Assembly (NCBI RefSeq): GCF_040939125.1
Contig: NZ_CP162495.1
Span: forward strand, 1 to 64,000
From: Clostridium sp. BJN0013
GTDB taxonomy: Bacteria > Bacillota > Clostridia > Clostridiales > Clostridiaceae
Length of the DNA stretch: 64,000 bases
Reading direction: 5' to 3'
Shown here: piece by piece, positions 39,949 to 46,429 of the stretch
How the letters are laid out: every line of letters begins with the position of its first letter
Position numbering within the stretch: the first letter of the stretch is position 1
Position numbers and translations under genes: made by a program
The notes under the pieces: generated by a model
What the model was told of the DNA's origin: nothing
The model's database searches: none
Seen by the model: only the letters and a program-made list of their open reading frames with translations

Positions 39949-40122
39949 ATGGAACATTTAATAAAATTGGGTTATACGTTTATAGGAGTATGGGCTTTAA
40001 TTAGCATAGTTGGGATAATAGGCTTTTATATAGTTGTTAGGAATTGCAAGAAGGAAAGTGCAAAGAGCTATAAGGAGTTTAAAAAGGAATGGGACAGGCA
40101 TGGGAGGAGGTTAGAAAGATAA
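39949..40122 (+). CDS. Small single-pass membrane protein, 57 aa
   Basis: One clear transmembrane segment, YTFIGVWALISIVGIIGFYI (about residues 9-28), is followed by a basic cytoplasmic tail. RBS GAAGAAGGTGAG. The function is unknown, and the position in the early region argues against a holin. Confidence 0.6.
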   Translation: MEHLIKLGYTFIGVWALISIVGIIGFYIVVRNCKKESAKSYKEFKKEWDRHGRRLER

Positions 40123-40739
40123 TGGAAGTATTGATAGCAGAACGTAAACATATAGATTTAACCAAACACTGTAAAATAAGATATGTAGAGAGAGTGAAAG
40201 GAATAACTGGTGACTTTGCTGTTCAGGAATATATGATAGCCAATGATGAACGAATAATACAGGATGTAAATAAGATATTCACTTATTCCGATTTCCTGAT
40301 AGAGGGTAAGATTGGTGAGGATAAGGTAGTCAGGAGATTTTATGTGAAGGATGATATACTCCTTGTTTTAAGTAAAGACGAGTCTGTGATTGTTACACTT
40401 ATTAAAGTAGACTTTGGGTTCCCTAGGAAAACTAACAGGGGAATTGTTAAGGACCTTCTGGAGGAAATAAATTTACTGAAGGAAGATTTAGAGGAAAGTG
40501 AAAAATCTATAACCGATTATGTGAATGCTAGAAGTTTGGAAAGGGAAAGGTATTTCGATAAAATCCAACTGCTGCAGGAAGAAATTAATTCTCTTAGCTT
40601 AACCATAAAACAAATTGATGTTGATATAGAGAAGAAGAGGGAGAGTACCAAGGTTTCAAAACTTAAAATAAAGGAATATGTGAATATGATTTGCAATTCC
40701 AGGGCTTTTAAGGATGATTTGAAACAGATGGGTAAGTGA
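40122..40739 (+). CDS. Hypothetical protein, 205 aa, coiled-coil C-terminus
   Basis: No family recognised. The N-terminal domain (HCKIRYVERVKGITGDFAVQ, then KVVRRFYVKDDILLVLSKDE) looks like a small alpha/beta fold. Residues 120-185 form a long coiled coil. ATG at 40122 overlaps the previous stop (TAATG) and has GGGAGGAGG upstream. Confidence 0.65.
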   Translation: MEVLIAERKHIDLTKHCKIRYVERVKGITGDFAVQEYMIANDERIIQDVNKIFTYSDFLIEGKIGEDKVVRRFYVKDDILLVLSKDESVIVTLIKVDFGFPRKTNRGIVKDLLEEINLLKEDLEESEKSITDYVNARSLERERYFDKIQLLQEEINSLSLTIKQIDVDIEKKRESTKVSKLKIKEYVNMICNSRAFKDDLKQMGK

Positions 40740-40788
40740 GAGATATAAGGAATAGACATAATTAAATAAGTTCATGGGAGGGAACTGT

Positions 40789-41325
40789 ATGTTGGACAAA
40801 GAAACATTTAAAAGGACAGAAGGTAAGCTGTATGGCTATTTTAGAGATTTAAAAGAAATGGAAGCTTTGGAACTGGAATGCAAAGACCTTCAAGATCAGG
40901 AAGAGAGTATTCAATGGGATATAAAGCACTGTAATGTATATGTTGTTGCAGACAGCCACATGAGCCCTAGTTTTAGTGAAAAGGTACAGACAAGCCCTAC
41001 AGGAGAAAGTACAGCAGAAAAAGGAATTGTTAGAGAAATTGAAAAGCTTGAGGATGAACTTGAGTATGTTGGAAGAAAGCTCCGTAAGAATATGGCCAGA
41101 ATAAGGCAGTTAAAAAGAAATACAGCTCCGTTGAAGAAAGTACTGACAGTCCCTCCACTATCAGAAGAAATCATGCAATTCATTATTTATAAGTACAAGC
41201 TAAACAAGGGCGTCGGGTGGATAGCAACTGAAATGTATGGTGGTGTGAGAAGTACTGCCTACAGGTGGCGAGAGGACATACTGGAGGATATTGTGAAGTG
41301 GGAAAGGGTGTATAAAGTTGGATAG
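40789..41325 (+). CDS. ArpU/sigma-like late transcription regulator
   Basis: 178 residues. A coiled N-terminal part (ELECKDLQDQEESIQWDIKH) leads to a C-terminal sigma region 4-like helix-turn-helix (LNKGVGWIATEMYGGVRSTA, YRWREDILEDI). ArpU/LtrC-like proteins close the early region of many Gram-positive phages and activate late genes. The nearest candidate target is the 11-bp repeat array at 43055. ATG at 40789 follows GGGAGGG. Confidence 0.7.
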   Translation: MLDKETFKRTEGKLYGYFRDLKEMEALELECKDLQDQEESIQWDIKHCNVYVVADSHMSPSFSEKVQTSPTGESTAEKGIVREIEKLEDELEYVGRKLRKNMARIRQLKRNTAPLKKVLTVPPLSEEIMQFIIYKYKLNKGVGWIATEMYGGVRSTAYRWREDILEDIVKWERVYKVG

Positions 41326-41390
41326 ACATAATGTTGACAATATATATTATAATATAATTAGCTTTTTAATCGTGAAAGGAGAATTTTGAT

Positions 41391-41978
41391 ATGTATGATA
41401 GTGACATAAGATCATTTTTGTATAGAGATTTTTCAAAAGAACCAATGTATGTAAATGATACTAGCACTATCGTTGTGCCTGAAATGAGCATATTAAACGG
41501 CTATGTTAGGATAGACATAGCCGTAATCAATGGTTTATTTCATGGATATGAAATAAAAAGTGATATGGATACCTTGCAAAGGTTGCCTAGACAATCAGAA
41601 TATTATAGTAAAGTTTTTGATAGAATGGTATTAGTAACAACCAAGAAATATGTGAATGAAGTAAAGAAAATAATACCCAAATGGTGGGGAATTAAATACT
41701 ATAATGAAAATAAAGAGCTTAAAACTGTTAGAAAAGGACGTATTAATAACAAAGTAGATCCATTTTCAAGACTAACTATTTTATGGAAGGACGAACTTAT
41801 AGAACTAATTGCTAGATATACAGACAAAAAATATAAGAGCAAAACAAAACGTGCTCTTATAGATATGATTTTAAAAGAAGTTCCAAATAATGAAATAATA
41901 GATTATACAAGGACTATAATTAAACTTAGATATAATTGGAGAGCTGTTTCAATATTACAGCTATGTGGTGAGCAGTAG
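41391..41978 (+). CDS. sce7726 family protein, PD-(D/E)xK-like
   Basis: A 195-residue protein of the sce7726 family. A nuclease-like active site is visible: E31, D42 in YVRIDIAVINGLFHGYEIKS, then E54-x-K56, followed by a Q/R-rich helix (LQRLPRQSEYY). The C-terminal half (KDELIELIARYTDKKYKSKT) may bind a partner. It begins after a TTGACA-containing AT-rich gap, so it may have its own promoter, and ends tail to tail with the beta-family gene. Confidence 0.78.
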   Translation: MYDSDIRSFLYRDFSKEPMYVNDTSTIVVPEMSILNGYVRIDIAVINGLFHGYEIKSDMDTLQRLPRQSEYYSKVFDRMVLVTTKKYVNEVKKIIPKWWGIKYYNENKELKTVRKGRINNKVDPFSRLTILWKDELIELIARYTDKKYKSKTKRALIDMILKEVPNNEIIDYTRTIIKLRYNWRAVSILQLCGEQ

Positions 41979-42939
41979 AAATTGTAACCCAATCTCTGCT
42001 TCTACCAGGACCTTTTTTATTAATAGATTTGGTGTATATTTGATTATCTCCATATGAAAAGTCTTTTCCGTAGAAAAAATTGGAATTAACTATTTTAGCA
42101 CACATGTCAAAAACTGAAACAATATAAGTATTTTTTATCCTGTCTTTTTTACCCTTTTGTACATAATAAAAATTATCAGTTGTATATTTTATTTTTGGCA
42201 GAATGCCATATTGAAGTTTTGAAAAGTCCATTTCTGTATCTGTAAATTTATTAACACCGTAGTCAGAATATATTAGTTTGTCCATTAAGTTTTTATATTC
42301 GGGGAGATTTAAAGCTTTATTAAATATACTAAATTCATATCTTTTATACGATTTTTCTTCACCTGCTTCTAAGGTACTTAAATTTTGGGGAAATGATGTA
42401 GATGAAATGATTATTTTGTTTATGTTATCATGATATTGTTCCAATTGGTGTAATACTTGATTTAATGCTACGTATTTTAAAGAAGCTGATTCCATATCTT
42501 GAACAAAAATTAAATCTAATATTATATCAATTTTTAAATTTGTTTCTTTTTTAAATATGTTTTTAAAAAATTCGGTATAGCTTAAAGAATCAAGAGGTTC
42601 AGGAATTGCTAATCTTATACATATTTCATCAAATTGGTCTTCTATAGAAGAAATGCTATTAAATAAATCATCAATATAAAATATAGGAATTATGTGCAGT
42701 GGTTTATTTCTTGAAGTTAATTTTTTATAAAAGTTAATATCTGTTTCCTCATAATGAGAAGTATCAATAAAAGCGTGCTCTAAGCCTGTTTCTTGTATTT
42801 GACTTAGCAAACTATTTGCATCTATTGCATCTACTAATTCAATTACAGGGAAAATTTTTTCAATCTGTTCTTTGCTCAACTTTTTGATAGAATCTTTTTC
42901 ACCTGGCTTCCATTTTAATATAGGAACATATTTAATCAT
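41926..42939 (-). CDS. Beta family protein (PF14350-type)
   Basis: A 337-residue protein of the T4 beta-like family: YVPILKWKPGEKDSIKKLSK at the N-terminus, VIELVDAIDA, and a C-terminus with GPGRSRDWVTISTAHHIAVI. The function is unknown, and relatives occur in mobile islands beside sce7725/sce7726 proteins. It is the only leftward gene between the early and late blocks and overlaps the sce7726 gene convergently by 53 bp. RBS GGAGGG upstream. Confidence 0.75.
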   Translation of the reverse strand: MIKYVPILKWKPGEKDSIKKLSKEQIEKIFPVIELVDAIDANSLLSQIQETGLEHAFIDTSHYEETDINFYKKLTSRNKPLHIIPIFYIDDLFNSISSIEDQFDEICIRLAIPEPLDSLSYTEFFKNIFKKETNLKIDIILDLIFVQDMESASLKYVALNQVLHQLEQYHDNINKIIISSTSFPQNLSTLEAGEEKSYKRYEFSIFNKALNLPEYKNLMDKLIYSDYGVNKFTDTEMDFSKLQYGILPKIKYTTDNFYYVQKGKKDRIKNTYIVSVFDMCAKIVNSNFFYGKDFSYGDNQIYTKSINKKGPGRSRDWVTISTAHHIAVILKQLSNYI

Positions 42940-43054
42940 TTTTATCCCTCCTGTTTTTAATAAATATTATTAAACCAACTTTAAAGTATAAAATTTATTT
43001 ATTTTAATAGTAGATTAAAATGTAAAATTATGCAATAGACAGCAAAAAAATCGT

Positions 43055-43130
43055 GAGACAAAAATGAGACAGATTTGAGACAAAAATAGGACAAAGTTGG
43101 GACAAAATTCATCTAAAAGTGTTATATACT
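43055..43130 (+). promoter_or_regulatory. Five 11-bp direct repeats and candidate late promoter
   Basis: GAGACA, GAGACA, GAGACA, AGGACA and GGGACA begin at 43055, 43066, 43077, 43088 and 43099: an exact 11-bp period. The last repeat overlaps the -35 position of a promoter with TATACT at 43125-43130. No good -35 hexamer is present, as expected for an activated promoter. Confidence 0.65.
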
Positions 43131-43298
43131 ATATATAGTCGATTATGGTTAAAATGAAAAATTGCAAACTGCATTGCAATAACTCATATACAAACTCTCC
43201 CTTAAAATAAACCTCTAGCCCCGAGGTTAAATGGGGCTGCCAATACGGGAAACCGTAAATAAAAATTATACTATATATGTGTGTATATCAGAAGGTAG

Positions 43299-43324
43299 GC
43301 ACTGTTAAATCAGTGCTTATTTTG
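43299..43324 (+). terminator. Terminator-like hairpin 1 in the late leader
   Basis: GCACTG-TTAAAT-CAGTGC followed by TTATTTTG. It has the same layout as the second hairpin at 43537 and as hairpins inside the late operon. Confidence 0.55.
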
Positions 43325-43536
43325 TATATTGTTTACAAATAGTTATTACATAGGACATTAGATTGTAACAAATACCATATATAATAAATATTATAACAGA
43401 TTATAAATTAGTTCCCTACCATATGAAGATTTAACCCGGTGTCTGTGGTTGCAGGACACATTAAACTCAAATGCAACCGCCAGAAGTTCGTATACTACAT
43501 AATAGTCTCCTTTAAAAATAATGTTATTAAAAGCAG

Positions 43537-43564
43537 GCACCTGTCATCTAGGGTGCTTATTTTG
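43537..43564 (+). terminator. Terminator-like hairpin 2 in the late leader
   Basis: GCACC (43537-43541) and GGTGC (43552-43556) form the stem; TTATTTTG follows. It is flanked by AGGCAC and TTGTAC, like hairpin 1, so the two look duplicated. Confidence 0.5.
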
Positions 43565-43659
43565 TACATAATTGAATAATATGGGTTTATTACCAGTGGA
43601 TTAATATTTATATGATTTCACTCATTCTTTATACTAATTAAAAAAAGGAGTGAATTAGT

Positions 43660-43833
43660 ATGTCTGAGATAGATAATATTCTATCACAAATAGAGTCTTT
43701 AAAAAGAAATCTTGACAATCTAATCACGCAGAAAGATAGTTTATTGGATCCAGAAATAATTATTGCAAGTCAAATGCTAGATTCAATGTTAAATAAATAT
43801 AGTAAAATAATTAAAGAGAAAATGGATAAATAA
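43660..43833 (+). CDS. Spo0E-like aspartyl-phosphate phosphatase
   Basis: A 57-residue Spo0E family protein: NILSQIESLKRNLDNLITQK then DSLLDPEIIIASQMLDSMLN, with the family core SQ-x-LD (here SQMLD) and a two-helix hairpin shape. Spo0E proteins remove the phosphate from Spo0A~P and delay sporulation. This copy is carried by the prophage, directly before the late genes. RBS AAAAGGAG. Confidence 0.85.
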   Translation: MSEIDNILSQIESLKRNLDNLITQKDSLLDPEIIIASQMLDSMLNKYSKIIKEKMDK

Positions 43834-43849
43834 AAAACAGGTGAGAGGT

Positions 43850-44023
43850 ATGAAGATAAGAGAAACCTTGAAAGAAAAGCTTGACCAAGATAAAAAATTA
43901 AATAAAGATAAACTAAGGAGAGGCGAATACCTCTCCTTTTATGATATAGAAAAATTAATGAGGCATGATTGCTACAGGAGGGTCAAGGGTGCTGTTAGGA
44001 GGGTAAGGTGGAATGGTATATAA
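43850..44023 (+). CDS. Hypothetical basic protein, 57 aa
   Basis: Not recognised. Very rich in Lys and Arg (RVKGAVRRVRWNGI at the C-terminus). ATG at 43850 follows GAGAGG. It overlaps the next gene by 11 bp. Confidence 0.55.
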   Translation: MKIRETLKEKLDQDKKLNKDKLRRGEYLSFYDIEKLMRHDCYRRVKGAVRRVRWNGI

Positions 44024-44198
44024 TCCATCAATTCATGAATGCCCAAAGGATTGTGAAACCTGTGGAAAGACACCAGAAGATAAAGAAAGCTGTAAAGATG
44101 AGTTTATAAAATACTGTGGGGAATGCCCTAATAGGGAATGGAAAAGGGTATTTGTCTGTAGGTGTAAGAATACTATTTGTAAGTATGGTTTTGAATAG
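44013..44198 (+). CDS. Cysteine-rich small protein, 61 aa
   Basis: Ten cysteines in 61 residues (HECPKDCETCGKTPEDKESC, then YCGECPNREW and CRCKNTICKYG) suggest two zinc sites. No family recognised. Coupled to the preceding gene. Confidence 0.6.
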   Translation: MVYNPSIHECPKDCETCGKTPEDKESCKDEFIKYCGECPNREWKRVFVCRCKNTICKYGFE

Positions 44199-44307
44199 AA
44201 GGTGAGGTGAGAAAGATAATAAAAAATTTCCATTAAGTTCATATATTATAAATAGTTACAATATATTATAAGTTTATAGTATATAAATTTAAGAAGGGGG
44301 ATTTATA

Positions 44308-44424
44308 TTGAAAAAAGTAGCTATGAAAATAATATGGGTTATTATAGCCACCGCATTGGTACTTCCTTTTATATTAACACTAATAATTAGTTATCCCAAA
44401 ATTATACATAATATGATGAAATAA
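44308..44424 (+). CDS. Small membrane peptide, 38 aa
   Basis: A TTG start after GAAGGGGG, then one long hydrophobic helix (IIWVIIATALVLPFILTLII). It lies just upstream of terminase. Function unknown. Confidence 0.5.
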   Translation: MKKVAMKIIWVIIATALVLPFILTLIISYPKIIHNMMK

Positions 44425-44487
44425 AAAATATATTAACTGAAGTTTCATCCAAAACAAAACGAATAGGCAGGTGGTGACAATGTAACT

Positions 44488-45033
44488 ATGGCTAAAACAA
44501 AATGGGATACCGTAAAAGATAAATTGATATTGGTTGAAGGTTGGGCTAGGGATGGGCTCACTGAGGGACAAATAGCAAAGAATTTGGGCATAAGTGAGAG
44601 CACATTAAATGGATATAAGAAAAAGTATCCGGAGTTTTTACAGTCCTTAAAAAAGGGAAAAGAGGTAATTGACTTTGAAGTGGAAAATGCACTTTTAAAA
44701 AGGGCATTGGGCTATGAATATACAGAAGTTACCAGAGAAAGAATGATAAGAAAAGACGAAAAAGGGAAGGTACTTACTGATATACATGGCTTCCCAACAT
44801 ATGATATGGTGGTTACTAAAACGGTTAAAAAGGAAGTTACACCGGATACCACGGCGCAAATATTCTGGCTCAAGAACAGGAAGCCTGAAGAATGGAGAAA
44901 TAAGAGAGATGTTGAGCATAGTGGGGAGGTAACACAAAATATTAATAATAAAACGGATTTATCTAACTTAAGTGACGAGGAGTTGAACACACTTGAAAAA
45001 ATCATTGGTAAGTCAACTTCCAACACTGAATGA
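44488..45033 (+). CDS. terS: Terminase small subunit
   Basis: 181 residues. The N-terminal helix-turn-helix (DGLTEGQIAKNLGISESTLN) recognises the packaging site; the C-terminal part (IFWLKNRKPEEWRNKRDVEH) is typical of TerS. It overlaps terL by 41 bp. The RBS is weak (GGTGGTGA). Confidence 0.9.
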   Translation: MAKTKWDTVKDKLILVEGWARDGLTEGQIAKNLGISESTLNGYKKKYPEFLQSLKKGKEVIDFEVENALLKRALGYEYTEVTRERMIRKDEKGKVLTDIHGFPTYDMVVTKTVKKEVTPDTTAQIFWLKNRKPEEWRNKRDVEHSGEVTQNINNKTDLSNLSDEELNTLEKIIGKSTSNTE

Positions 45034-46429
45034 AATAAGAATAGAAAAAGCTAAAAGACATCTGATTGATTTTACGCATTGGACTTTTCCTCAATACATA
45101 GTTAATGATCATCATAGAAGATATGCTAGTGCTCTTGATAAATTTGCAAAAGGTGAAATAAAAAATCTGATGGTATTTATGCCACCACAGCATGGCAAAA
45201 GTGAATTGTGTAGCAGAAGACTTCCAGCTAAACTTTTAGGAGACAACCCTAATTTAAGAATAGCTCTGGCATCTTATAATCATAATTTTGCAAGCAAATT
45301 CAATAGAGATGTTCAGAGAATTGTTGACAGTCAAGAATATAAGCTGTTATATCCCAAAACAAGAATTCCGTCTAAGGGTTTAAAAACTAATGGTACATGG
45401 CTTAGAAATTCAGAAGAATTTGAAGTTATAGATCATAGGGGCAGTTTTATTACTGTAGGTGTAGGTGGAGGTTTAACAGGTAGACCAGTAGATATAGGAA
45501 TCATAGATGACCCTTATAAAGATCCTGCTGATGCATGGAGTCCCACAGTAAGACAAAATGTACAAGATTGGTATGACACAGTATTTAAAACTCGTTTGCA
45601 TAATGATAGCCAACAACTTATAACCCTTACCAGATGGCACCAAGATGATTTAGCAGGAACGTTATTGAAAAGAGAATCAGAAGAATGGGATGTAGTTATT
45701 TTCCCAGCTATTAAGATAGGGCCTCCAACAGAAGAGGATCCAAGACAAGAAGGAGAAGCTTTATGGAAAAACAAACATAGCCTTAAAAAATTACTTTCTG
45801 TTAAAAAGCAAAACCCTTATATATTTGAATCCATGTATCAGCAAAATCCTAAGCCAGCAGAAGGGTTATTATTCCCTATAGAAAGCTTACACAAATTTAC
45901 TATGGAAGACATTAAAAATAAACCTAGTGATGGAGTTATAGCAGGTATAGATTTGGCAGACAAGGGAGAAGATTTTTATTGTATGTTGGTTGCTTTAATT
46001 ATAGAAGGCAAGATATATATTGTAGATTGTGTATTTACTCAACAACCAGTAGAAAAGACAGAACCTCTTACAATATCCTTGTTGAAGCAATATGATGTTT
46101 TTAAATGTAGGATAGAAAGTAATGGGGCCGGTGAAATGTATTGCAGAAGCTTAAAAACAAAATGCCTAGAGGAAGGAGCTGTTACTTCTTTTGATCCGGT
46201 ATTTACAACGACCAATAAAGAGACGAGAATTTTATTATCAAGTGGGCAGATTAAAGAACATTTATACTTTAGGTCTGATTACGAATATGGGAGCCAATAC
46301 GAAAAGTTTATGGACAACTTAACTAATTATACTATTCAGGGCAAAAACGAACACGATGATGCACCAGATGCAGCAGCTATGATTATAGATTTAATAATGA
46401 AGAGTGGACTTAAATTTTTATTGGAGTAA
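44993..46429 (+). CDS. terL: Terminase large subunit
   Basis: The packaging ATPase and nuclease, 478 residues. Walker A-like PPQHGKSE (64-71), Walker B DIGIIDDPY, and the nuclease residues in IAGIDLADKGEDFYCMLVAL and HDDAPDAAAM. The TTG start lies inside terS. It pumps DNA into the prohead through the downstream portal. Confidence 0.95.
   Translation: MKKSLVSQLPTLNEIRIEKAKRHLIDFTHWTFPQYIVNDHHRRYASALDKFAKGEIKNLMVFMPPQHGKSELCSRRLPAKLLGDNPNLRIALASYNHNFASKFNRDVQRIVDSQEYKLLYPKTRIPSKGLKTNGTWLRNSEEFEVIDHRGSFITVGVGGGLTGRPVDIGIIDDPYKDPADAWSPTVRQNVQDWYDTVFKTRLHNDSQQLITLTRWHQDDLAGTLLKRESEEWDVVIFPAIKIGPPTEEDPRQEGEALWKNKHSLKKLLSVKKQNPYIFESMYQQNPKPAEGLLFPIESLHKFTMEDIKNKPSDGVIAGIDLADKGEDFYCMLVALIIEGKIYIVDCVFTQQPVEKTEPLTISLLKQYDVFKCRIESNGAGEMYCRSLKTKCLEEGAVTSFDPVFTTTNKETRILLSSGQIKEHLYFRSDYEYGSQYEKFMDNLTNYTIQGKNEHDDAPDAAAMIIDLIMKSGLKFLLE

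Follow-up and report, generated by a model that had tools for sequence, protein, structure and literature searches.

A five-unit, one-turn repeat array as the putative operator of a RinA/ArpU-like late regulator in a clostridial prophage

Five direct repeats of 11 bp stand in front of a putative late promoter in the window, as we call the whole stretch of 64,000 nucleotides of Clostridium sp. BJN0013 analysed here, and we propose that they very probably serve as the operator for a late activator encoded by the phage itself, the RinA/ArpU-like protein of 40774-41325. This reading is based on the head-to-tail arrangement of the units on one face of the DNA, the near-fixed distance of the last unit to the -10 region, the conservation of the array together with the regulator and the occurrence of one-turn arrays in the regulator family. 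In temperate phages that infect Gram-positive bacteria, packaging genes are under the control of RinA-type activators, for whose operators the accessible part of PMC13123087 gives no description beyond imperfect repeats. If our reading is correct, these operators would share a common syntax, with one unit per helical turn, the last unit at the -35 position and a period of 10 or 11 bp that depends on the regulator clade. Such a syntax would aid the finding of late promoters from sequence and makes the contact between activator and polymerase directly testable.

The array and its promoter

43055-43065, plus strand: putative operator unit 1, GAGACAAAAAT, starting with GAGACA (sequence, TRF)
43066-43076, plus strand: putative operator unit 2, GAGACAGATTT, starting with GAGACA (sequence)
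43077-43087, plus strand: putative operator unit 3, GAGACAAAAAT, starting with GAGACA (sequence)
43088-43098, plus strand: putative operator unit 4, AGGACAAAGTT, starting with AGGACA (sequence)
43099-43109, plus strand: putative operator unit 5, GGGACAAAATT, starting with GGGACA and overlapping the -35 position (sequence)
43123-43130, plus strand: -10 region, TATATACT, 18 bp after the last array unit (sequence)

Read directly, the five units are spaced by exactly 11 bp and each is preceded by a T. The sequence-only reading had placed five GAGACA or GGGACA repeats at these starts; its positions and spacing hold, but unit 4 reads AGGACA. TRF called a period of 11 with 4.9 copies at 43054-43107, and also a period of 22 there. 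There are 81 RRGACA sites on the plus strand of the window, and the longest run of such sites, with spacings of 6-30 considered on both strands, is the array itself (5 at spacing 11), followed by a run of 3 at spacing 22 that comes from the same array. For comparison, 200 simulated 64-kb sequences (Markov-1) were examined for spacings of 7-30; their longest run consisted of one site in 12, two in 187 and three in one. That the five-unit array is real and exceeds chance is confirmed.

With a 17-bp spacer to TATACT, the -35 place is occupied by ACAAAA (43102-43107), which is no consensus -35 and overlaps unit 5. This bears out the earlier claim that the last repeat covers a missing -35 box. The -10 sequences of relatives read TATATACT, TATATAAT or TACATACT, and in the 15 distinct clostridial arrays listed with a scored gap, the last unit is separated from TAYATAMT by 18 bp in 13 and by 17 bp in 2. 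This count leaves out the clostridial loci L146, L147, L274 and L285, in which the chain is interrupted or the -10 is different; by eye, the gap is 17 bp in L274 and L285. Also kept out of it is a search of viral contigs by pattern alone (three GRGACA units), which gave at least 120 stretches. Among the matches listed, the clostridial promoter is absent from nearly all of these arrays, the exceptions being L024, L027 and L116 with TAYATAMT at 15, 26 and 34 bp, respectively.

Direct repeats upstream of terS could also be replication iterons, which are direct repeats too, or a packaging site. The near-fixed distance to the -10 and the presence of the same array before unrelated terminases (see below) speak against both, and we regard this explanation as highly improbable.

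A second promoter-like stretch, GACATTA..GTAACAAATAC..TATATAAT, is present in the window at about 43353-43395, and similar stretches are seen in several leaders.

The regulator and its locus

40774-41325, plus strand: RinA/ArpU-like late regulator, 183 aa (phrog_36, 2.4e-16; AlphaFold2)
41391-41978: sce7726-family protein, cargo, between regulator and array
41926-42939, minus strand: Beta-protein, cargo, between regulator and array
43660-43833: Spo0E-like small protein (PF09388, 5.7e-12), first ORF after the late leader
44488-45033, plus strand: small terminase subunit, late gene (phrog_309, 2.7e-67)
44993-46429, plus strand: large terminase subunit, late gene (phrog_38, 3.6e-102)

The regulator ORF contains an in-frame ATG at 40789, a possible start and the one chosen in the sequence-only reading. 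Its sole significant PHROG match is phrog_36, annotated as 'transcriptional regulator' (2.4e-16 over residues 4-176). For phi11 RinA, too, this family scores far better than any other (1.9e-38). Compared with the single RinA sequence by hhalign, the regulator gave no significant match (probability 0.2, E 0.3); as judged from these comparisons, the relation between the two proteins runs through the common phrog_36 model only. No match to the regulator at or above the cut-off was obtained with Pfam, none to DUF722 or phrog_2198, the family of Alt, in the Pfam and PHROG scans, and none by tblastn in the phage record collection. The AlphaFold2 model has a mean pLDDT of 77.5 and places helices at residues 9-51, 80-121, 129-142, 147-155 and 161-180, the first two being long and the last three forming a C-terminal unit with a block pLDDT of about 65-79. 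The predicted fold is compatible with a mechanism in which one helix-turn-helix reads each unit, and is no proof of it.

The regulator gene lies ahead of terS (44488), from which the two cargo genes and three small ORFs separate it, and judged from gene order only it would stand at the end of the early region. The sce7726-family and Beta-protein genes are convergent and overlapping and match the PADLOC models cll and PD-Lambda-2_C; we regard the pair as candidate defence cargo. The leader downstream of the array promoter measures about 530 bp and is followed by the Spo0E-like gene, two small ORFs, terS and terL. One might guess that the Spo0E-like protein possibly meddles with host sporulation.

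A second prophage of this genome, at 1.69 Mb, agrees with that of the window in regulator, cargo, array and leader. In the stretch compared, the two copies are free of mismatches for the first 1.8 kb, up to about 300 bp past the array start, and then diverge, and the large terminase of the second prophage is unrelated to that of the window (best E 0.02). Since the two prophages share this block but differ in the large terminase, the array goes with the regulator and not with the packaging genes, and regulator, array and leader move as a block independently of the latter. The second copy is recent and is no independent evidence of conservation.

Array and regulator in related loci

Near-full-length matches to the regulator, with 47-100% identity, were found in 17 loci by the IMG/VR and genome scans. 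These are partly redundant, as L013 and L017 share one contig and the pairs L139 and L015, L141 and L143, and L140 and L144 look identical. An 11-bp array of 3 to 6 units lies downstream of the regulator in all 17 loci (8 of 8 in the IMG/VR set). The distance from the regulator match to the array is 48-53 bp in 8 loci and 810-2177 bp, with other genes between, in 9. As to the ArpU-like protein, which had been named as prime suspect, the family assignment (phrog_36) and the co-occurrence in 17 of 17 loci strengthen the suspicion; that it binds the array and activates the promoter we infer.

Outside this set, L147 (34% identity, regulator frame broken) has three degenerate units and L148 (27% identity) another 11-bp word, GCATAAAAAAC. 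The array is absent in the 1.4 and 4.0 kb downstream of the partial matches L149 and L150, whose regulator genes are both broken; the L149 remnant has 57% identity over residues 62-173. A six-unit array of C. tyrobutyricum (L003/L008) is located on a contig in which a regulator match is absent.

The array could alternatively be the operator of another protein, such as a phage repressor, a second Ltr-like regulator or a host factor, with the ArpU-like protein acting elsewhere. In the window, the array is indeed 1.7 kb away from the regulator, no regulator stands beside the array in L008, and in L313 two regulator-like genes precede one array of 15.6 copies, which leaves the pairing ambiguous. 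Nevertheless, the presence of the array in 17 of 17 loci with a close regulator, together with the one-turn arrays that accompany related regulators elsewhere, in other genera and other families, speaks for the phage's own activator, and we consider an operator of another protein unlikely.

Two arrays deserve mention. In the C. tyrobutyricum prophage remnant (L008, 5920-10123), the six-unit array and a leader RNA directly precede ORFs that by eye resemble lysis genes and a small terminase, and another prophage might drive these in trans. In L006 (1036-1590), which comes from a different genus (G075), a 130-aa ORF with a regulator-like C-terminus (by eye) is immediately followed by six 11-bp units carrying GGGACA or similar words.

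One-turn arrays across the regulator family

Relatives of the regulator were present in 31 of 200 genomes, and 30 loci were examined for lags of 8-14. The best lag was 11 within 1.5 kb in 16 of them (raw counts without shuffles, several margins being small), the array was further away than 1.5 kb in three (the window, L311 and L312), and 11 of these remote-relative loci had no best-lag-11 array within 1.5 kb. A separate set consisted of 110 phrog_36 loci of Clostridiaceae, 30 from an initial selection and 80 hand-picked down the same listing with a few near-duplicates skipped, and is partly redundant. The 80 bp preceding and the 220 bp following the end of the phrog_36 gene were matched against themselves. 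Lag 10 gave the best self-match in 25 loci and lag 11 in 31, against 4 and 9 in a control stretch. With z>3.5 relative to dinucleotide shuffles, lag 10 was found in 13 loci, lag 11 in 22 and lag 20 in 9; the remaining lags reached at most 2 each, and a control stretch 700-1000 bp on had 0 at both 10 and 11. About two thirds of the 110 loci have no significant array. Among 25 phrog_36 loci from other Bacillota families, lag 10 passed z>3.5 in 7 and lag 11 in 5 (11 distinct loci), and lags 15 and 20 in one each, with one each at 7, 11 and 20 in the control.

The core words differ between arrays, and one-turn arrays with words other than GRGACA beside further family members were not anticipated in the sequence-only reading. 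Arrays of 11 bp contain GRGACA, GGAATTA (seven units in L297), TGCAAC, TGCATT, TGGTAC or CACCAAT, and those of 10 bp TGGCACA, TGTCACT or TGATACT. This variety bears on the idea that the array is mainly structural, in that A-tracts phased at 11 bp would introduce a bend that aids RNA polymerase, no dedicated protein being involved. In the window and several relatives, G/C-containing cores do alternate with A-rich spacers. However, conservation extends beyond the A-tracts to the cores, and 10-bp arrays with few A-tracts, such as the TGGCACA repeats, stand beside family members, which renders a purely structural role very unlikely.

The period of the array is a trait of the regulator clade. In a sample of 42 non-redundant regulators, 11 with 10 bp and 31 with 11 bp, the nearest-neighbour regulator has the same period in 40, where 25.4 are expected and 0 of 20,000 permutations reached this value. 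The sample was drawn from the Clostridiaceae loci at z>3, the window and L265, which were added by hand, and eleven loci outside Clostridiaceae; it includes L347 at z 3.3 and omits L358 (best lag 15). By eye and post hoc, a helix signature R-x-H, taken as the motif [RK]-[LIMA]-H-[GSDT], is found in the last 60 residues of 11 of 11 period-10 regulators and 0 of 31 period-11 regulators. For distant regulators, no significant correlation between the core word and helix-turn-helix similarity was seen (Mantel Spearman 0.09, with 420 of 5,000 permutations as high); core similarity was 0.905 in the 11 regulator pairs with at least 60% identity versus 0.42 below 40%. In this test, 14 of 53 loci were dropped (protein piece under 80 aa) and the other 39 were reduced to 24.

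In L313 (2233-2404), an 11-bp unit is repeated in tandem 15.6 times up to a TATAAT; this array stands after two regulator-like genes, the second identified by eye.

The leader RNA and terminators

43210-43280, plus strand: leader RNA element, with an H-type pseudoknot at 43210-43239 and a GAAA-loop hairpin at 43245-43256 (pairing, covariance model)
43292-43323, plus strand: terminator-like hairpin 1 (pattern scan)
43535-43558, plus strand: terminator-like hairpin 2 (pattern scan)

In 12 sequences of the leader element, 94.1% of cells are paired, compared with 23-47% in slid controls, and six pairs are changed on both sides. Conservation of the hairpin helix is a selection effect, because the 12 sequences were gathered by a word covering the hairpin; the pseudoknot helices lay outside this word. 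A covariance model built from these sequences, the window among them, gave 46 matches, in 8 of 13 genomes of the genus and with seven copies in Clostridium sp. BJN0013. Thirty matches were fetched, corresponding to 24 distinct loci (L293 was omitted, its flank being cut), and a terminator-like hairpin adjoins the element in 20 of the 24, versus 1.25% in simple shuffles. The element is seen after GRGACA as well as GGAATTA arrays, and in L266 after what may be a 10-bp repeat of two units; several copies have no recognisable array nearby. Rfam gave only matches far below the gathering scores for 40000-46000, blastn against the phage record collection one weak, short match, and the leader RNA was not found in the literature or family libraries searched.

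The position of the element before a terminator suggests a control of termination. As two terminator-like hairpins and a pseudoknot RNA, neither of them anticipated in the sequence-only reading, precede the first late gene, the promoter by itself may be insufficient to account for late expression, and antitermination may be needed as well for the late genes. We also considered the leader as a packaging (cos/pac) site and rejected this, since the two prophages of the genome share the leader yet have unrelated large terminases. That the leader pseudoknots, with their CCA ends, are tRNA-like is mentioned only in passing; of the 110 family loci, 2 contain tRNAs according to ARAGORN.

Several structures near these leaders are listed here as observations in their own right. 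A tRNA-Tyr in L273 (8829-8916) has its end precisely where the leader element has its conserved CCA, and takes the place of the pseudoknot, a tRNA-Asn follows the array in L146 (6979-7055), and a tRNA-Lys lies between alt and terS of TP901-1 (L261, 5135-5209). In the window, a second possible H-type pseudoknot before the second terminator (43439-43482) combines GTGTC/GACAC with a loop GGTTGCA pairing with TGCAACC, and similar forms are readable in L015, L142 and L273.

Discussion

We propose that each unit of the array would be read by one helix-turn-helix of the activator and that neighbouring protomers would contact each other along one face of the DNA, resulting in cooperativity. The protomer on the last unit would occupy the place of sigma region 4 at the -35 position and recruit the host RNA polymerase to the bare -10. 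The recruited polymerase would start a transcript leading into terS and the structural genes. If the leader RNA controls termination, it would constitute a second layer of late control. One might tentatively speculate on a two-step scheme, in which the array fires the promoter and the pseudoknot RNA acts as a put-like antiterminator or attenuator before terS, with R-x-H helices reading 10-bp units and the others 11-bp units; we regard this scheme as possible but doubtful.

Among the known systems, phi11 RinA, required for late gene expression according to the part of PMC13123087 available, is similar to the window regulator in that it belongs to phrog_36 and is encoded just upstream of terS. 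Downstream of rinA, two TGGCAG words spaced by 11 bp can be read by eye; only these two units are seen there, and RinA has 140 aa compared with 183 aa for the window regulator. The late activator Alt of TP901-1 recognises four imperfect direct repeats located between -76 and -32 (PMC13123087, accessible part), which by arithmetic are about 11 bp each, as in the window array. Repeats of roughly 10-11 bp are also readable by eye after alt, which lies before terS. In contrast to the window regulator, Alt belongs to phrog_2198 and DUF722 and matches phrog_36 at only 0.005. Ltr regulators generally bind four imperfect repeats, and in the case of phi13 Ltr (Ltr family IV), the late promoter is active only with the repeats that lie upstream of it (same source, as far as accessible). 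The phi13 ltr gene is, like the window regulator, upstream of the late promoter, whereas its repeats are 18 bp long in three and a half copies and the window units span one turn each. No title on a clostridial array or on a one-turn rule was found in the literature searched, which was mostly without subscription papers. As far as these partly accessible sources go, the use of imperfect repeats by RinA, Ltr and Alt activators is known, and the one-turn grammar is new.
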